Positions 6,408 through 10,955 of a DNA stretch of 64,000 bases are shown here, in pieces. Both the position numbers and the translations under genes were made by a program. The notes under the pieces were generated by a model. It did not search any database and was not told where the DNA came from. It was given only the letters and a program-made list of their open reading frames with translations. How positions within the stretch are numbered: the first letter of the stretch is position 1; the number at the start of each line of letters is the position of its first letter. The stretch spans positions 1-64,000 of the forward strand of contig JAFTIM010000014.1 of the NCBI GenBank assembly GCA_017456885.1, given 5' to 3'. The stretch comes from Paludibacteraceae bacterium (lineage in GTDB: Bacteria; Bacteroidota; Bacteroidia; Bacteroidales; Paludibacteraceae).

Positions 6408-7181
6408 TTACTCAATATTCTTTCGTACTTTTTTGAGGAAGGTCTGCATGGCATCAGTGTCTTTTTGGCGAATGATGTCAAGCAGAAGTTCCAGCTCGGT
6501 TTGTATTTTTTCTACCTGATTGGGTGTGTGTGGATTGAAAAGAATTTCGGAAAGCAAATAATCGTCTTCCGAGAGCAATCCGCGAGCCACCGCCATGTGT
6601 TTTTTGAACGTCGTACCCGGAGCATCTTGGTGCTTCATAATGGCAGAAAAAACCAACGACGACACAAACGGCAACGAAAGCGAATAAGCAATCGTTTCGT
6701 CGTGTTCTTCAAAAGAGTATTCAAAAATGTTCAGTTTGAGCGAGTTATAGAAATCTTTGAAAAACATTTTTCCCAAATAATCGGATTCGGCAATGATAAT
6801 GGCATTTTCGCTCGAAAGATTGTCAAGTCGGGCAAACGTAGGTCCAAACATCGGGTGCGTAGAAACAAAACGCATTCCCGTTTTTTGGTAAAACTCAGGC
6901 AAACCTGTTTTTACCGAAGCAATATCGGACAAGATACAATCTTTGGACACATAGGGCAACACTTTTTCGAACGCCTCGATGGTGTATTTTATGGTAGCAG
7001 CGTTGATAACGAGTTCGGGATTGAACTCACGCACACTCTCCAATTCACTCATGCGTTGAGTGTTAAACACAAATCGCAAACGCGAGGCATCGGGATCGTA
7101 CAATGCAACTTCGTGTTTCAGACAAAGAGCATCGGTAAAAAACGTTCCCATTTTACCTGCACCTAAAATCAATATCCTCAT
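6408..7181 (-). CDS. tyrA: Prephenate dehydrogenase
   Basis: This 257-residue enzyme oxidatively decarboxylates prephenate to 4-hydroxyphenylpyruvate, the tyrosine branch of aromatic synthesis. The N-terminus is a Rossmann fold with GAGKMG at residues 7-12. A conserved THPMFGPTFA segment near residue 108 matches the prephenate-dehydrogenase active site (THPMFGP). It lacks a fused chorismate mutase, which is instead carried by the upstream gene. It is the last gene of the four-gene Phe/Tyr operon, 12 bp after the DAHP synthase gene, and should fall under the attenuator at 10.3 kb. Confidence 0.93.
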   Translation of the reverse strand: MRILILGAGKMGTFFTDALCLKHEVALYDPDASRLRFVFNTQRMSELESVREFNPELVINAATIKYTIEAFEKVLPYVSKDCILSDIASVKTGLPEFYQKTGMRFVSTHPMFGPTFARLDNLSSENAIIIAESDYLGKMFFKDFYNSLKLNIFEYSFEEHDETIAYSLSLPFVSSLVFSAIMKHQDAPGTTFKKHMAVARGLLSEDDYLLSEILFNPHTPNQVEKIQTELELLLDIIRQKDTDAMQTFLKKVRKNIE

Positions 7182-7193
7182 TTTACGGAGAAT

Positions 7194-8261
7194 TTATTTA
7201 TTAATGATTTCCACCTGCTGACGAACCGACTCTTCGTGAATAGCCTCAAAAACCTTTTTCATAAATTCGCTATCCATACCGCATTGCACAGCCTGAATGC
7301 CACGTTTGTTGATAATCTCGTCATAACGCCCCGACTGAAAAATCGTCATATTATGTTCTTTTTTGAATACACCTATTTCGCGCGAGATACGCATACGTTT
7401 TGCCAAAGTTTCAATCAGTTGATTGTCGCATTCATCAATTTGCGAACGCAATTCGCTCAAATTTTCAGTAGTTTGCTTTCCCTCACGAATAACCAAAAGA
7501 TTCAAAATATAGCTCAAAATATCAGGCGTAACTTGTTGCATGGCATCGCTCCAAGCGCAATCGGGATTTTCGTGCGATTCCACCATTAAACCATCAAAAT
7601 TTAGGTCCATAGCTTGCTGACAAAGCGGGGCTATCAATTCGCGTTTGCCACCGATATGGCTCGGGTCGCAAATAATAGGCAAATTCGGCAAGCGACGACG
7701 CAATTCAATAGGAATATGCCATTGAGGAATGTTACGATAAATTTTTTTGTCGTAGGAACTAAATCCGCGATGTATCACTCCAAGTTGTTTGACTCCGGCA
7801 TTATTCAATCGTTCCAAGGCTCCTATCCACAACTCCAAATCGGGATTAACAGGATTTTTTACCAACACTGGAATATCTACTCCACGTAGTGAATCGGCAA
7901 TTTCTTGTACAGCAAAAGGGTTTGCCGATGTTCTTGCTCCAATCCAAAGCAAGTCAATGTCGTATTTCAAAACCTCTTCCACGTGTTTTGCCGTAGCCAC
8001 TTCGGTAGCCACATACATGTCTGTTTCTTCTTTTACGCGTTGCAACCACGCCAAGCCTTTTTCGCCAACACCTTCAAAACCTCCCGGTTTTGTACGAGGT
8101 TTCCAAATACCCGCACGAAAGATTTTGATTCCTTTGGCAGCTAATTGTTTGGCCGTGTTCAGAGTTTGTTCTTCCGACTCTGCACTACACGGACCTGCTA
8201 TCACAATGGGACGTTTCTCTTCAACGCCTTCCATCTTTATTTTTTTCAATTCTAATTCCAT
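7194..8261 (-). CDS. Bifunctional DAHP synthase / chorismate mutase
   Basis: Residues 1-260 form a 3-deoxy-7-phosphoheptulonate synthase of the short type I-beta class, with GPCSAES near residue 23, WKPRTKPGGFEG near 54 and DPSHIGGKRE near 200. It condenses phosphoenolpyruvate and erythrose 4-phosphate. Residues 265-355 form an AroQ-type chorismate mutase (LRSQIDECDNQLIETLAKRM and following helices). The fusion joins the first step of the shikimate pathway with the branch point to Phe and Tyr. It is a known arrangement in Bacteroidota. It lies 16 bp after the aminotransferase gene, inside the attenuated operon. Confidence 0.95.
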   Translation of the reverse strand: MELELKKIKMEGVEEKRPIVIAGPCSAESEEQTLNTAKQLAAKGIKIFRAGIWKPRTKPGGFEGVGEKGLAWLQRVKEETDMYVATEVATAKHVEEVLKYDIDLLWIGARTSANPFAVQEIADSLRGVDIPVLVKNPVNPDLELWIGALERLNNAGVKQLGVIHRGFSSYDKKIYRNIPQWHIPIELRRRLPNLPIICDPSHIGGKRELIAPLCQQAMDLNFDGLMVESHENPDCAWSDAMQQVTPDILSYILNLLVIREGKQTTENLSELRSQIDECDNQLIETLAKRMRISREIGVFKKEHNMTIFQSGRYDEIINKRGIQAVQCGMDSEFMKKVFEAIHEESVRQQVEIINK

Positions 8262-8277
8262 ATTTAAATATATTTTC

Positions 8278-9447
8278 TTACAAATTTTGTTTTATTCTAT
8301 TCAATGCTTCTGCCAATTTTTCTTCTTTGGCACAAAGCGAAATGCGGATATACCGACTTCCGTTAGAGCCAAAAATAAACCCCGGTGTAATAAACACACG
8401 CGCTTCGTGCAACACTTTCTCCGTCAACTCTTCGGCATCGGCATACGTTGCAGGTATTCGTCCCCAAAGAAACATTCCCACTTGCGCAGGGTCAAACGTG
8501 CAATGCAGGGTTGTCATTATCTCTTCGGCAAAATTCCGACGTCTTCCGTAAACATTGATATTGGCTTCCTCATGCCATGTTTGACTATTATGATAGGCTT
8601 GTGCCGCTGCCAACTGCATAGCACGAAAAGTACCCGAATCGATATTACTTTTTATCTTCAAAATCCATTGCACAAATTCTGCATTTGTAGCCAACATTCC
8701 CACACGCCAACCCGGCATATTGTGACTTTTGCTCATCGAGTTGAACTCAATACAGCAATCTTTTGCTCCCGATACATTTAATATACTGATTGGCTTGCGA
8801 TTAAGGATAAAACTATATGGATTATCGTTCACCACCACGATATTTTTACGTTTGGCGAAATCGACAATTTTTTCATACAAATCCAATGTTGCATTCGCTC
8901 CTGTCGGCATATTCGGATAATTGGTCCACATCAACTTTACACGACTCAAATCCATTTTCTCCAATGCCTCAAAATCGGGCTGCCAACCCGTTTCCTGTTT
9001 CAAATCGTAATGCACCACCTTACACCCCAATATCTTGCTCAACGACGTATAAGTAGGATAACCGGGATTAGGGACCAGCACCTCGTCACCGACATTGGCA
9101 AAAGCCAGCGTAACATGCAAAATGCCCTCTTTTGAGCCAATAAGCGGTTGAATTTCAGTGGCAGGATTTAAATCAACATCGTACCATCGTTTATAAAACG
9201 ACGCCATGGCCTCTCGTAATTCAGGTATTCCGACAGTGGGTTGATACCCATGTGCATCTGCTTTTCTGGCATTTTCGCAAAGCACTTCTATCGTTTCAGG
9301 CGATGGCGGCATATCGGGGCTACCAATTCCCAAACTGATAATATCTTTCCCTGCGGCATTAAGCGAAGCTATCTCTTTCAGTTTTCTTGAAAAATAGTAT
9401 TCGGTTATTGTACCAAGTCGGTTGGCCGGTTGTATATTCATATTCAT
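8278..9447 (-). CDS. Class I/II aminotransferase of the Phe/Tyr operon
   Basis: This 389-residue PLP-dependent enzyme of fold type I has the Schiff-base lysine in SMSKSHNMPGWRVG. Its place between pheA and the DAHP synthase/chorismate mutase gene suggests it transaminates phenylpyruvate and 4-hydroxyphenylpyruvate as the last step to Phe and Tyr. The sequence also resembles LL-diaminopimelate and aspartate aminotransferases, so the substrate is inferred from context. ATG codons occur at residues 1 and 3; pheA ends only 2 bp upstream, so the genes are tightly coupled. Confidence 0.9.
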   Translation of the reverse strand: MNMNIQPANRLGTITEYYFSRKLKEIASLNAAGKDIISLGIGSPDMPPSPETIEVLCENARKADAHGYQPTVGIPELREAMASFYKRWYDVDLNPATEIQPLIGSKEGILHVTLAFANVGDEVLVPNPGYPTYTSLSKILGCKVVHYDLKQETGWQPDFEALEKMDLSRVKLMWTNYPNMPTGANATLDLYEKIVDFAKRKNIVVVNDNPYSFILNRKPISILNVSGAKDCCIEFNSMSKSHNMPGWRVGMLATNAEFVQWILKIKSNIDSGTFRAMQLAAAQAYHNSQTWHEEANINVYGRRRNFAEEIMTTLHCTFDPAQVGMFLWGRIPATYADAEELTEKVLHEARVFITPGFIFGSNGSRYIRISLCAKEEKLAEALNRIKQNL

Positions 9448-9449
9448 TT

Positions 9450-10283
9450 TTATGCTGTAAATGCTTTGTATTCTCCAAGATTTTTAAACTCATTCGCAAA
9501 AGGTTTTATCGCACTCAATGCTTGCTGATAACGTGTATAGTTATCATATTCAAGCGTAATATAAAAGCGATATTCCCACTCTTTACCTATAATCGGCAAC
9601 GATTGAATTTTCGATAAATTGATATGATAAAACGAAAAGATTGTCAGTATTTTTGACAAACTACCCTCTTCGTGTGGCACTGTAAGCATCAACGACGCTT
9701 TGTTCGTTTCGTTCTCGACATTCCATTTTTTTGCATTCTCGCTATTGGTAATCACCAAAAAACGCGTAAAATTACGTTTATTGGTTTCGATACCGTCGGC
9801 AAGTACGGCCAAATTATATATCTCCGCTGCCAAGCGACCACAAATAGCCGCCTGACCTTTCAAATTGTTTTCAGCAATTTCTTTTGCACTGAATGCCGTA
9901 TCTTCACTTTCCACAGCTTTCATGGCTTTATGTTGAGCAAGAAATTCTTCACATTGCATCAATGCGATAGGATGAGAATGCACTTCCTTTATATCGTCAA
10001 TGCTCTGATTGGGCAATGCCACCAACGAATGCTCTATTCTCAATTTGTATTCACCAATTATTTGCAACTCGCTGTTACTCAACAGATGATGATTTTGCAA
10101 GAGACTTCCGGCAATGGTATTCTCAATTGCCATTATGGCATAATAGTCGTTTTCAGGAGTTACCTGCTCAAATATTTCCTTAAAAGTAAGGCAGGGTATA
10201 ATCTCTATATCCTCTCCGAAAAAGTTGCGAGCGGCAATTTCATGAAACGACCCTGCAATTCCTTGTATAGCTACTTTTTTCAT
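9450..10283 (-). CDS. pheA: Prephenate dehydratase
   Basis: This 277-residue enzyme converts prephenate to phenylpyruvate. The catalytic domain covers about residues 1-180 and includes the conserved TRF motif (NFTRFLVI). A C-terminal ACT domain (about 195-270) should bind phenylalanine. In place of the GALV and ESRP Phe-binding motifs of E. coli PheA it has GSLS and QSLP, so feedback sensitivity may differ. There is no fused chorismate mutase; that activity is on a separate protein in the same operon. It is the first structural gene after the Phe/Tyr leader and attenuator. Confidence 0.95.
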   Translation of the reverse strand: MKKVAIQGIAGSFHEIAARNFFGEDIEIIPCLTFKEIFEQVTPENDYYAIMAIENTIAGSLLQNHHLLSNSELQIIGEYKLRIEHSLVALPNQSIDDIKEVHSHPIALMQCEEFLAQHKAMKAVESEDTAFSAKEIAENNLKGQAAICGRLAAEIYNLAVLADGIETNKRNFTRFLVITNSENAKKWNVENETNKASLMLTVPHEEGSLSKILTIFSFYHINLSKIQSLPIIGKEWEYRFYITLEYDNYTRYQQALSAIKPFANEFKNLGEYKAFTA

Positions 10284-10293
10284 TGTTCTTTAT

Positions 10294-10370
10294 AAAAAAA
10301 TCCCACTCAAAAATGAGCGGGATTTACCAAATTCTTGTTTCTTAAATATTTCTATAACAAATCCCGCTCT
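10294..10370 (-). promoter_or_regulatory. Transcription attenuator of the Phe/Tyr operon
   Basis: Three segments on the minus strand can pair in two exclusive ways. Segment 1 (10370-10359) and segment 2 (10325-10314) share a perfect 11-bp complementarity, forming an antiterminator. Segment 2 and segment 3 (10309-10298) form a 12-bp stem with one G-U pair and a 4-nt loop, followed by a T-run to 10294, which is an intrinsic terminator. Segment 1 begins at the stop codon of the leader peptide. A ribosome that finishes the leader would cover it and allow termination, whereas one stalled at Phe or Tyr codons would leave it free. The start of pheA is 11 bp downstream. Confidence 0.85.
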
Positions 10371-10423
10371 TATTTCTTAAAATAAAAGTAAAAATAGAAA
10401 TATTCAAAAAATCGTACTATCAT
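10370..10423 (-). CDS. Phe/Tyr-rich leader peptide
   Basis: A 17-codon frame encodes MIVRFFEYFYFYFYFKK, with six Phe and four Tyr among 17 residues. Its stop codon coincides with the first base of attenuator segment 1. A TATCTTTG promoter element lies about 20 bp upstream. The composition matches exactly the two amino acids made by the downstream operon, the hallmark of ribosome-mediated attenuation. The peptide itself should have no function beyond sensing charged tRNA-Phe and tRNA-Tyr. Confidence 0.85.
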   Translation of the reverse strand: MIVRFFEYFYFYFYFKK

Positions 10424-10443
10424 AACATCTTCTTTTTGCGATG

Positions 10444-10477
10444 CAAAGATACGAAAGAGTTTCTTCTTTTGCACAAA
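10444..10477 (-). promoter_or_regulatory. Promoter of the Phe/Tyr operon
   Basis: TATCTTTG (10451-10444) on the minus strand is a perfect -7 element. A TTTG box (10477-10474) lies 22 bases upstream, slightly longer than the usual 19-21. Transcription would begin near 10438, giving a very short leader before the leader-peptide ATG at 10423. Confidence 0.6.
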
Positions 10478-10508
10478 AAAATAGTTGATTTCTCAACTAT
10501 TTCAAAAA

Positions 10509-10955
10509 CTATTCTTCCACTACTCCTTCTTCTGAAGCATTCGCTTCGCCAAGTATCTCGCCAAAGTTTTCATTCTTAAACTCATAGCGGATTCCGCCTA
10601 AACGATATAGTTTGGCACGATCGCCAATAAATTTCAATTCCCATTTTTTTGAAGTAGGAATGCCTCCGTCCATCTCAACCAAACTCAAATTAGGATGAAC
10701 CTTATCACGCACGATTCCACTAATTACTCTAAAAGAGATGGCTTTCCCGTCCATTTTTACAGTACACATATCATACAATGTTTCAGCATCTTTTGTAAGA
10801 TTAATTGTGATAGACATCGGAGTTTCCGTAACACAATCATTTAAATTGCTAACACAAAAATTATAGCTATAATTAAATTTATCTTTTTTGCCATTTGCAG
10901 CAAAAACAACACAACTCGTTGCTATTAACAACAGAATAAATAATGTCTTTTTCAT
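10509..10955 (-). CDS. Secreted protein of unknown function
   Basis: This 148-residue protein has a clear N-terminal signal peptide (about residues 1-20, ending CVVFAANG). The remainder is a beta-rich soluble domain with two Cys (in NFCVSNLNDCV) that could form a disulfide, and an acidic C-terminal tail. I do not recognise the family. It is monocistronic, between the Phe/Tyr operon leader and the divergent pheS. Confidence 0.7.
   Translation of the reverse strand: MKKTLFILLLIATSCVVFAANGKKDKFNYSYNFCVSNLNDCVTETPMSITINLTKDAETLYDMCTVKMDGKAISFRVISGIVRDKVHPNLSLVEMDGGIPTSKKWELKFIGDRAKLYRLGGIRYEFKNENFGEILGEANASEEGVVEE

Follow-up and report, generated by a model that had tools for sequence, protein, structure and literature searches.

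A probable ribosome-mediated attenuator with a Phe/Tyr-rich leader upstream of pheA in a Paludibacteraceae bacterium and related Bacteroidia

The pheA locus and its leader region

The window (the whole 64,000-nt stretch of contig JAFTIM010000014.1, assembly GCA_017456885.1, that was analyzed) carries on its minus strand, in this order, a promoter, a short leader ORF, an antiterminator/terminator pair, and the genes for pheA, an aminotransferase, a DAHP synthase/chorismate mutase, and tyrA (Table 1). The four structural genes are probably co-transcribed, given the gaps of 2–16 nt between them. In the window genome, pheA is present as a single copy. A preliminary description of this DNA had placed a promoter, a 17-codon leader, and a terminator before pheA on the minus strand, and all three are present there. 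Its count of six Phe and four Tyr codons was reproduced, and the operon content, with which these codons had been said to match, was confirmed using Pfam.

Table 1. Features of the pheA leader region and of the genes downstream of it in the window.
Feature	Position	Strand	Basis
-33 element TTTG of the leader promoter, 22 nt 5' of the -7 box	10474..10477	-	Sequence and sigma-ABfr consensus
-7 element TATCTTTG (fits TAnnTTTG)	10444..10451	-	Sequence; same box in relatives
Leader ORF MIVRFFEYFYFYFYFKK, 17 codons and TAA stop; 6 Phe and 4 Tyr control codons	10370..10423	-	
Segment 0 (CTTTTATTT), 5' arm of the protector hairpin, within the Phe/Tyr codons	10380..10388	-	Folds; compensatory TAC-G / TAT-A changes
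3' arm of the protector hairpin (AAATAAGAG), spanning the final Lys codon, the stop codon, and bases 1-3 of segment 1	10367..10375	-	
Segment 1 (GAGCGGGATTT), 5' arm of the antiterminator, immediately 3' of TAA	10359..10369	-	
Segment 2 (AAATCCCGCTC), common to antiterminator and terminator	10315..10325	-	
Segment 3 (GAGTGGGATTT; with U run GAGTGGGATTTTTTT), 3' arm of the terminator	10294..10308	-	
pheA, prephenate dehydratase, first structural gene, ATG at 10283	9450..10283	-	Pfam PF00800, E 1.4e-57
Class I/II aminotransferase	8278..9447	-	Pfam PF00155, E 3.1e-63
DAHP synthase fused to chorismate mutase	7194..8261	-	Pfam PF00793 and PF01817
tyrA, prephenate dehydrogenase	6408..7181	-	Pfam PF02153, E 3.5e-11

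Both promoter elements fit the Bacteroidota sigma-ABfr consensus, TTTG/TAnnTTTG, as given in PMC7366714. The same-strand gene upstream of the leader ends at 10509. An A/T-rich stem-loop followed by a U run lies 3' of this gene (10475-10507, minus strand) and overlaps the -33 TTTG of the leader promoter; the signal that ends one gene and the one that starts the next thus have bases in common.

The antiterminator of the window (segments 1:2) folds with -18.6 kcal/mol and the terminator (2:3) with -17.6 kcal/mol. The latter features a 12-bp stem and a U run (10325-10298), and it was also recovered by an independent terminator scan. In the protector hairpin (0:1), CUUUUAUUU is paired with AAAUAAGAG. 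An 11-bp antiterminator and a 12-bp terminator made from three segments had been described beforehand; both helices were found, but the element has four segments, the protector hairpin having been missed. At least 10 Phe and Tyr codons in one ORF were encountered in 57 of 5000 dinucleotide shuffles of the window's intergenic region (ca. 1%). The Phe/Tyr content of the window alone is therefore only moderately unlikely, and it is the conservation in relatives that settles the reality of the leader.

Two other observations concern the window genome (G000). No His or Phe leader was seen at its hisG and pheS genes, and no match to trpE/anthranilate synthase component I (PF04715) was found in this 95%-complete genome, which suggests Trp auxotrophy or a gap.

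Occurrence of the leader in relatives

The gene pheA was searched for in the relatives of the genome, in public bacterial genomes, and in the whole phylum. The public-genome set comprised 80 loci, mostly from Paludibacteraceae, Barnesiella, Parabacteroides, and other Bacteroidales. Loci were collected via pheA only; the leader was never used as a search key. Three of the 80 named loci were too close to a contig edge, leaving 77 with usable upstream sequence.

A Phe/Tyr-rich leader followed by the switch was found in 74 of these 77 Bacteroidales loci, and a Phe/Tyr-rich leader was present in every examined locus of the same class outside the order. Outside the class, it was found in five loci only (L106, L109, L134, L144, and L147), all of which have a relatively Bacteroidia-like pheA; no leader was seen at L120 or at the more distant pheA genes. 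To judge from these sequences, the leader seems to travel with Bacteroidia-type pheA. The comparison upstream of pheA was the test by which the preliminary description had proposed to be judged, and the relatives proved to have both the aromatic codons and the alternative pairing.

In the three exceptions among the 77 (L043, L054, and L064), pheA lies immediately 3' of an apparent truA (recognized by eye), and the leader and attenuator are absent; these are three related losses. Together with most pheA homologues outside the class, which have no leader, they show that the leader is not obligatory for pheA. In other classes of the phylum, the pheA matches of G173, G188, G276, G315, and G323 sit in open frames of 668-719 aa, which suggests that pheA is fused to another protein there.

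In the loci examined, Phe and Tyr accounted for 64% of the codons in the leader frame vs. 21-22% in the other two frames. Upstream of segment 1, a leader contained on average 5.5 Phe and 4.0 Tyr codons; in 111 of 119 leaders, each of the two amino acids was encoded three or more times. A bacteroidal -7 box was located 5' of the leader in 92 of 119 loci (vs. 6.1 in shuffles), with a median spacing of 27 nt to the start codon; the loci are related by descent, and p-values and counts such as these overstate their independence. A chance T-rich frame was ruled out by the frame-specific conservation, despite the frequency of such frames in the window shuffles. The conservation of the frame also suggests that the leader is translated. 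When the bare Phe-Tyr codon pattern was used in genome searches, matches were about as frequent as with a reversed control. At least one Trp codon precedes segment 1 in 26 of 119 leaders (e.g. L118, L127, L152, and L153), mostly upstream of the last codons; these codons are possibly a weak third aromatic input.

The competing hairpins and the codon-to-segment distance

With the terminator fixed first and independently, 116 of 119 loci had a segment 1 whose pairing exceeded that of shuffles (p<0.05). This test was regarded as fairer than a combined three-segment search, because the latter optimizes all arms jointly. The segments diverge between loci (GAGCAGGAT, GGCAGGAG, AACGGGGTTT, CGAGGCTT, GCCGGGACT), and within a locus all three match. 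When segment 2 was swapped between loci, the mean energy of 1:2 rose from -16.1 to -9.4 kcal/mol, and that of 2:3 rose from -17.4 to -10.3 kcal/mol. The arms of the antiterminator and terminator are under selection, with the sequences changing and the complementarity being kept. In the free full-length RNA, the terminator was dominant, with a mean pair probability of 0.91 (0.95 when segment 1 was hidden).

In most loci, the last Phe/Tyr codons (typically CUUUUAC) fold with a stretch that straddles the 5' end of segment 1 (mostly GUAAGAG). Opposite the third base of the penultimate Tyr codon, G was present in 50 of the 57 loci having TAC at this position; among the 21 loci having TAT, A was present in 18 and G in none (Fisher p = 2e-13). 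The 3' arm used in this test was chosen blind to the tested column. In 84 of 107 unique regions, the hairpin was more stable with the actual synonymous codons than with codons drawn anew according to gene usage. The 0:1 helix is a protector hairpin that, without a ribosome, sequesters the 5' end of segment 1, so that the terminator can form, and the preference of the free RNA for the terminator is consistent with this role. A three-segment switch that stays on without translation was dropped from consideration, as the free-RNA folds favor the terminator and the protector hairpin is conserved. A leader-to-linker helix present in the window fold showed no conservation over that in codon shuffles (21 of 40 loci), and it is not claimed here.

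Segment 1 began a median of 10 nt (quartiles 9-12) after the last Phe/Tyr codon. This spacing fell between 6 and 15 nt in 97% of loci, vs. 22% for the best match in shuffles; the comparison left out seven loci that had tandem modules or lacked a true leader. The position of the stop codon varies widely: at one extreme it precedes segment 1 (as in the window), and at the other it lies far beyond the segment (as in Parabacteroides and other families of the class). Across these sequences, then, what is held constant as a ruler is the spacing between the last Phe/Tyr codon and segment 1, not the position of the stop codon. The abutment of the stop codon on segment 1, as originally described, holds for the window and its relatives; elsewhere, the ORF enters or passes segment 1. 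Toeprints of the E. coli ribosome extend ca. 9-10 nt beyond the A-site codon. With this reach, a ribosome on the last Phe codon would just spare segment 1, and one at the stop codon would cover it.

Some loci, the window not among them, have two Phe/Tyr leader-terminator modules in series 5' of pheA. These loci (L006/L070, L015, L053, L062, L067, L069, L075, L078, L081, L082, L108, and L119; also L022) belong to apparently unrelated lineages. In a rumen group (L066 and L086), the module nearest pheA resembles the second tandem module. Tandem attenuators are found in the Salmonella mgtCBR leader (PMC3641672), which, like the tandem loci, has two short ORFs and two switchable structures serially in one leader; unlike it, the tandem loci have a Phe/Tyr leader in both modules and appear to sense the same pair of amino acids at each.

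Interpretation, alternatives, and related systems

We consider it very probable that the element is a classical four-segment attenuator of transcription, operated by the ribosome and sensing charged tRNA-Phe and tRNA-Tyr. The sequence marks of such an attenuator were found: control codons that match the products, an intrinsic terminator, an antiterminator exclusive of it, a protector hairpin, and a spacing equal to the footprint distance. The gene set makes Phe and Tyr, so its products match the amino acids that would be sensed, and this match counts for the attenuator reading. The enterobacterial type of attenuation had been proposed at the outset; that proposal is supported in that the relatives share the codons and the alternative pairing.

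By analogy with the established trp, his, and pheA attenuators, the switch probably operates as follows. When Phe and Tyr are plentiful, the first ribosome would reach the stop codon and cover the start of segment 1; segments 2 and 3 would then pair, and transcription would terminate before pheA. When Phe or Tyr is scarce, the ribosome would stall within the alternating Phe/Tyr run. The stalled ribosome, with a reach of only ca. 9 nt past the last Phe codon, would open 0:1 and free segment 1, which would pair with segment 2, and the polymerase would proceed into pheA and the aminotransferase, DAHP synthase/chorismate mutase, and tyrA genes. With no ribosome, 0:1 and 2:3 would form together, and termination would be the outcome. 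Stalling, termination in vivo, and a response to each of the two amino acids are accordingly expected from the analogy with those attenuators.

Within the attenuator reading, dual sensing of Phe and Tyr is quite likely. The opposing notion, to which we attach a low probability, is that stalling at Phe alone matters, the Tyr codons being there as an arm of the protector hairpin or as shared T-rich codons. It is in keeping with the last control codon, which is mostly Phe (TTT at position -1 in 91 of 119 leaders), and with the TAC codons at -2 and -4, which serve the pairing. However, a role in pairing alone needs no Tyr further upstream in the run, and the leaders contain on average 4.0 Tyr codons along with the 5.5 for Phe, with at least three of each in the 111 leaders mentioned above. 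Moreover, the last Tyr codon ends a median of 13 nt before segment 1, also within reach of the ribosome, and the operon makes both Phe and Tyr.

Explanations that dispense with the ribosome are far less probable. The hairpins could answer some other signal, as in a protein-binding leader or a riboswitch, with the Phe/Tyr frame a T-rich by-product; the leader region of the window is indeed T-rich, and shuffles occasionally yield long Phe/Tyr frames. This account, which we deem very improbable, is opposed by Phe/Tyr content that is specific to the frame, by synonymous variation (TTT/TTC and TAT/TAC) in more than 100 loci, and by a run-to-segment-1 distance that is fixed, whereas the sequence of the segments, the loop length, and the stop position vary. 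A riboswitch or T-box in particular was rejected, as no such match was found in Rfam and sub-threshold matches were at chance level. Slightly less probable still is the idea that the upstream gene ends here in an ordinary, unregulated terminator and that pheA is expressed by leakage through it. The stem and U run do make a good intrinsic terminator, and a same-strand gene does end at 10509, but that gene is followed, ahead of the promoter, by an A/T stem-loop and U run of its own. What lies between the two terminators is conserved, namely the promoter box, the leader, and the competing antiterminator, the last of which already contradicts leakage.

The ribosome-mediated attenuator favored here has well-known counterparts in E. 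coli, where Phe is sensed via attenuation and Tyr, separately, via TyrR. The E. coli pheA leader senses Phe alone. Like the present element, the E. coli pheA attenuator (RF01859) has a Phe-rich leader peptide, a protector, an antiterminator, a terminator, and a prephenate dehydratase target; unlike it, the present element has alternating Phe and Tyr codons and a gene set that includes tyrA, and no sequence relationship between the two was seen. The E. coli trp attenuator has four segments, control codons in the 5' arm of the protector, and a stop codon near the next segment. In these respects it resembles the pheA element described here, from which it differs in the amino acids sensed, the sequence, the promoter type, and initiation, which occurs here in a phylum without Shine-Dalgarno sequences (see PMC7366714, in its available text).

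No match to the window element was found in Rfam 15. The enterobacterial Phe_leader family (RF01859) scored 16 bits against a cut-off of 55, outside that family; Bacteroid-trp (RF01692) gave no match either at the gathering score or, within the element, at E<=5, and the T-box covariance model had no match in the window. Bacteroid-trp, which we take to be a Trp attenuator, embodies a related idea in Bacteroidetes, but with Trp instead of Phe/Tyr. It has been listed as a Bacteroidetes cis-regulatory motif (PMC2864571). Phe/Tyr uORFs upstream of shikimate genes have been noted in other bacteria (PMC6429828), and an aroF motif is described for Acholeplasma (PMC8632094). For B. thetaiotaomicron, the published map mentions sORFs “reminiscent of leader peptides” within long 5' UTRs, and pheA is not named in the passages found (PMC7366714).

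The preliminary description knew of no described example in this order. Nothing was found that contradicts this statement, but it must be qualified by an element of the same phylum: in the available text on the transcriptome of Flavobacterium psychrophilum, clues to leader-peptide attenuation are given for the regions preceding amino-acid operons, and a 5' element without an Rfam family, located ahead of pheA, is described as conserved in Flavobacteriaceae (PMC9723704). That element shares the phylum and the gene with the present one, and the main text of the report gives no peptide, segments, or amino acids for it. It is probably of the same family, because loci of the same class outside the order have the leader. 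At the present level of detail, the family is in neither Rfam nor the literature that was found, although older surveys (Lyubetsky 2007, Lopatovskaya 2010) may cover Bacteroidetes. The kind of mechanism is already textbook; the breadth and the dual sensing are unusual.

We think it likely, with less assurance than for the mechanism itself, that these loci represent an old, class-wide family of Bacteroidota attenuators in which an interleaved codon run, whose codons also build the protector hairpin, turns one ribosome into a sensor of either of two amino acids, and which was inherited with Bacteroidia-type pheA and duplicated in tandem in several lineages. Such a family would imply tight coupling of transcription and translation in the leader in a phylum without Shine-Dalgarno sequences. 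The constant codon-to-segment ruler is indirect evidence that, in Bacteroidota, the leading ribosome and RNA polymerase are closely coupled; such coupling is difficult to demonstrate by other means, and this leader element allows a direct test of it. The element spans the Bacteroidales and much of the wider class, in a phylum that ranks among the dominant ones of the human gut, and the pheA leader offers a ready Phe/Tyr-responsive switch for Bacteroides genetics. Its two-amino-acid logic contrasts with the separate sensing of Phe and Tyr in E. coli: very probably, the device turns on the genes of Phe and Tyr synthesis only when either amino acid runs short.
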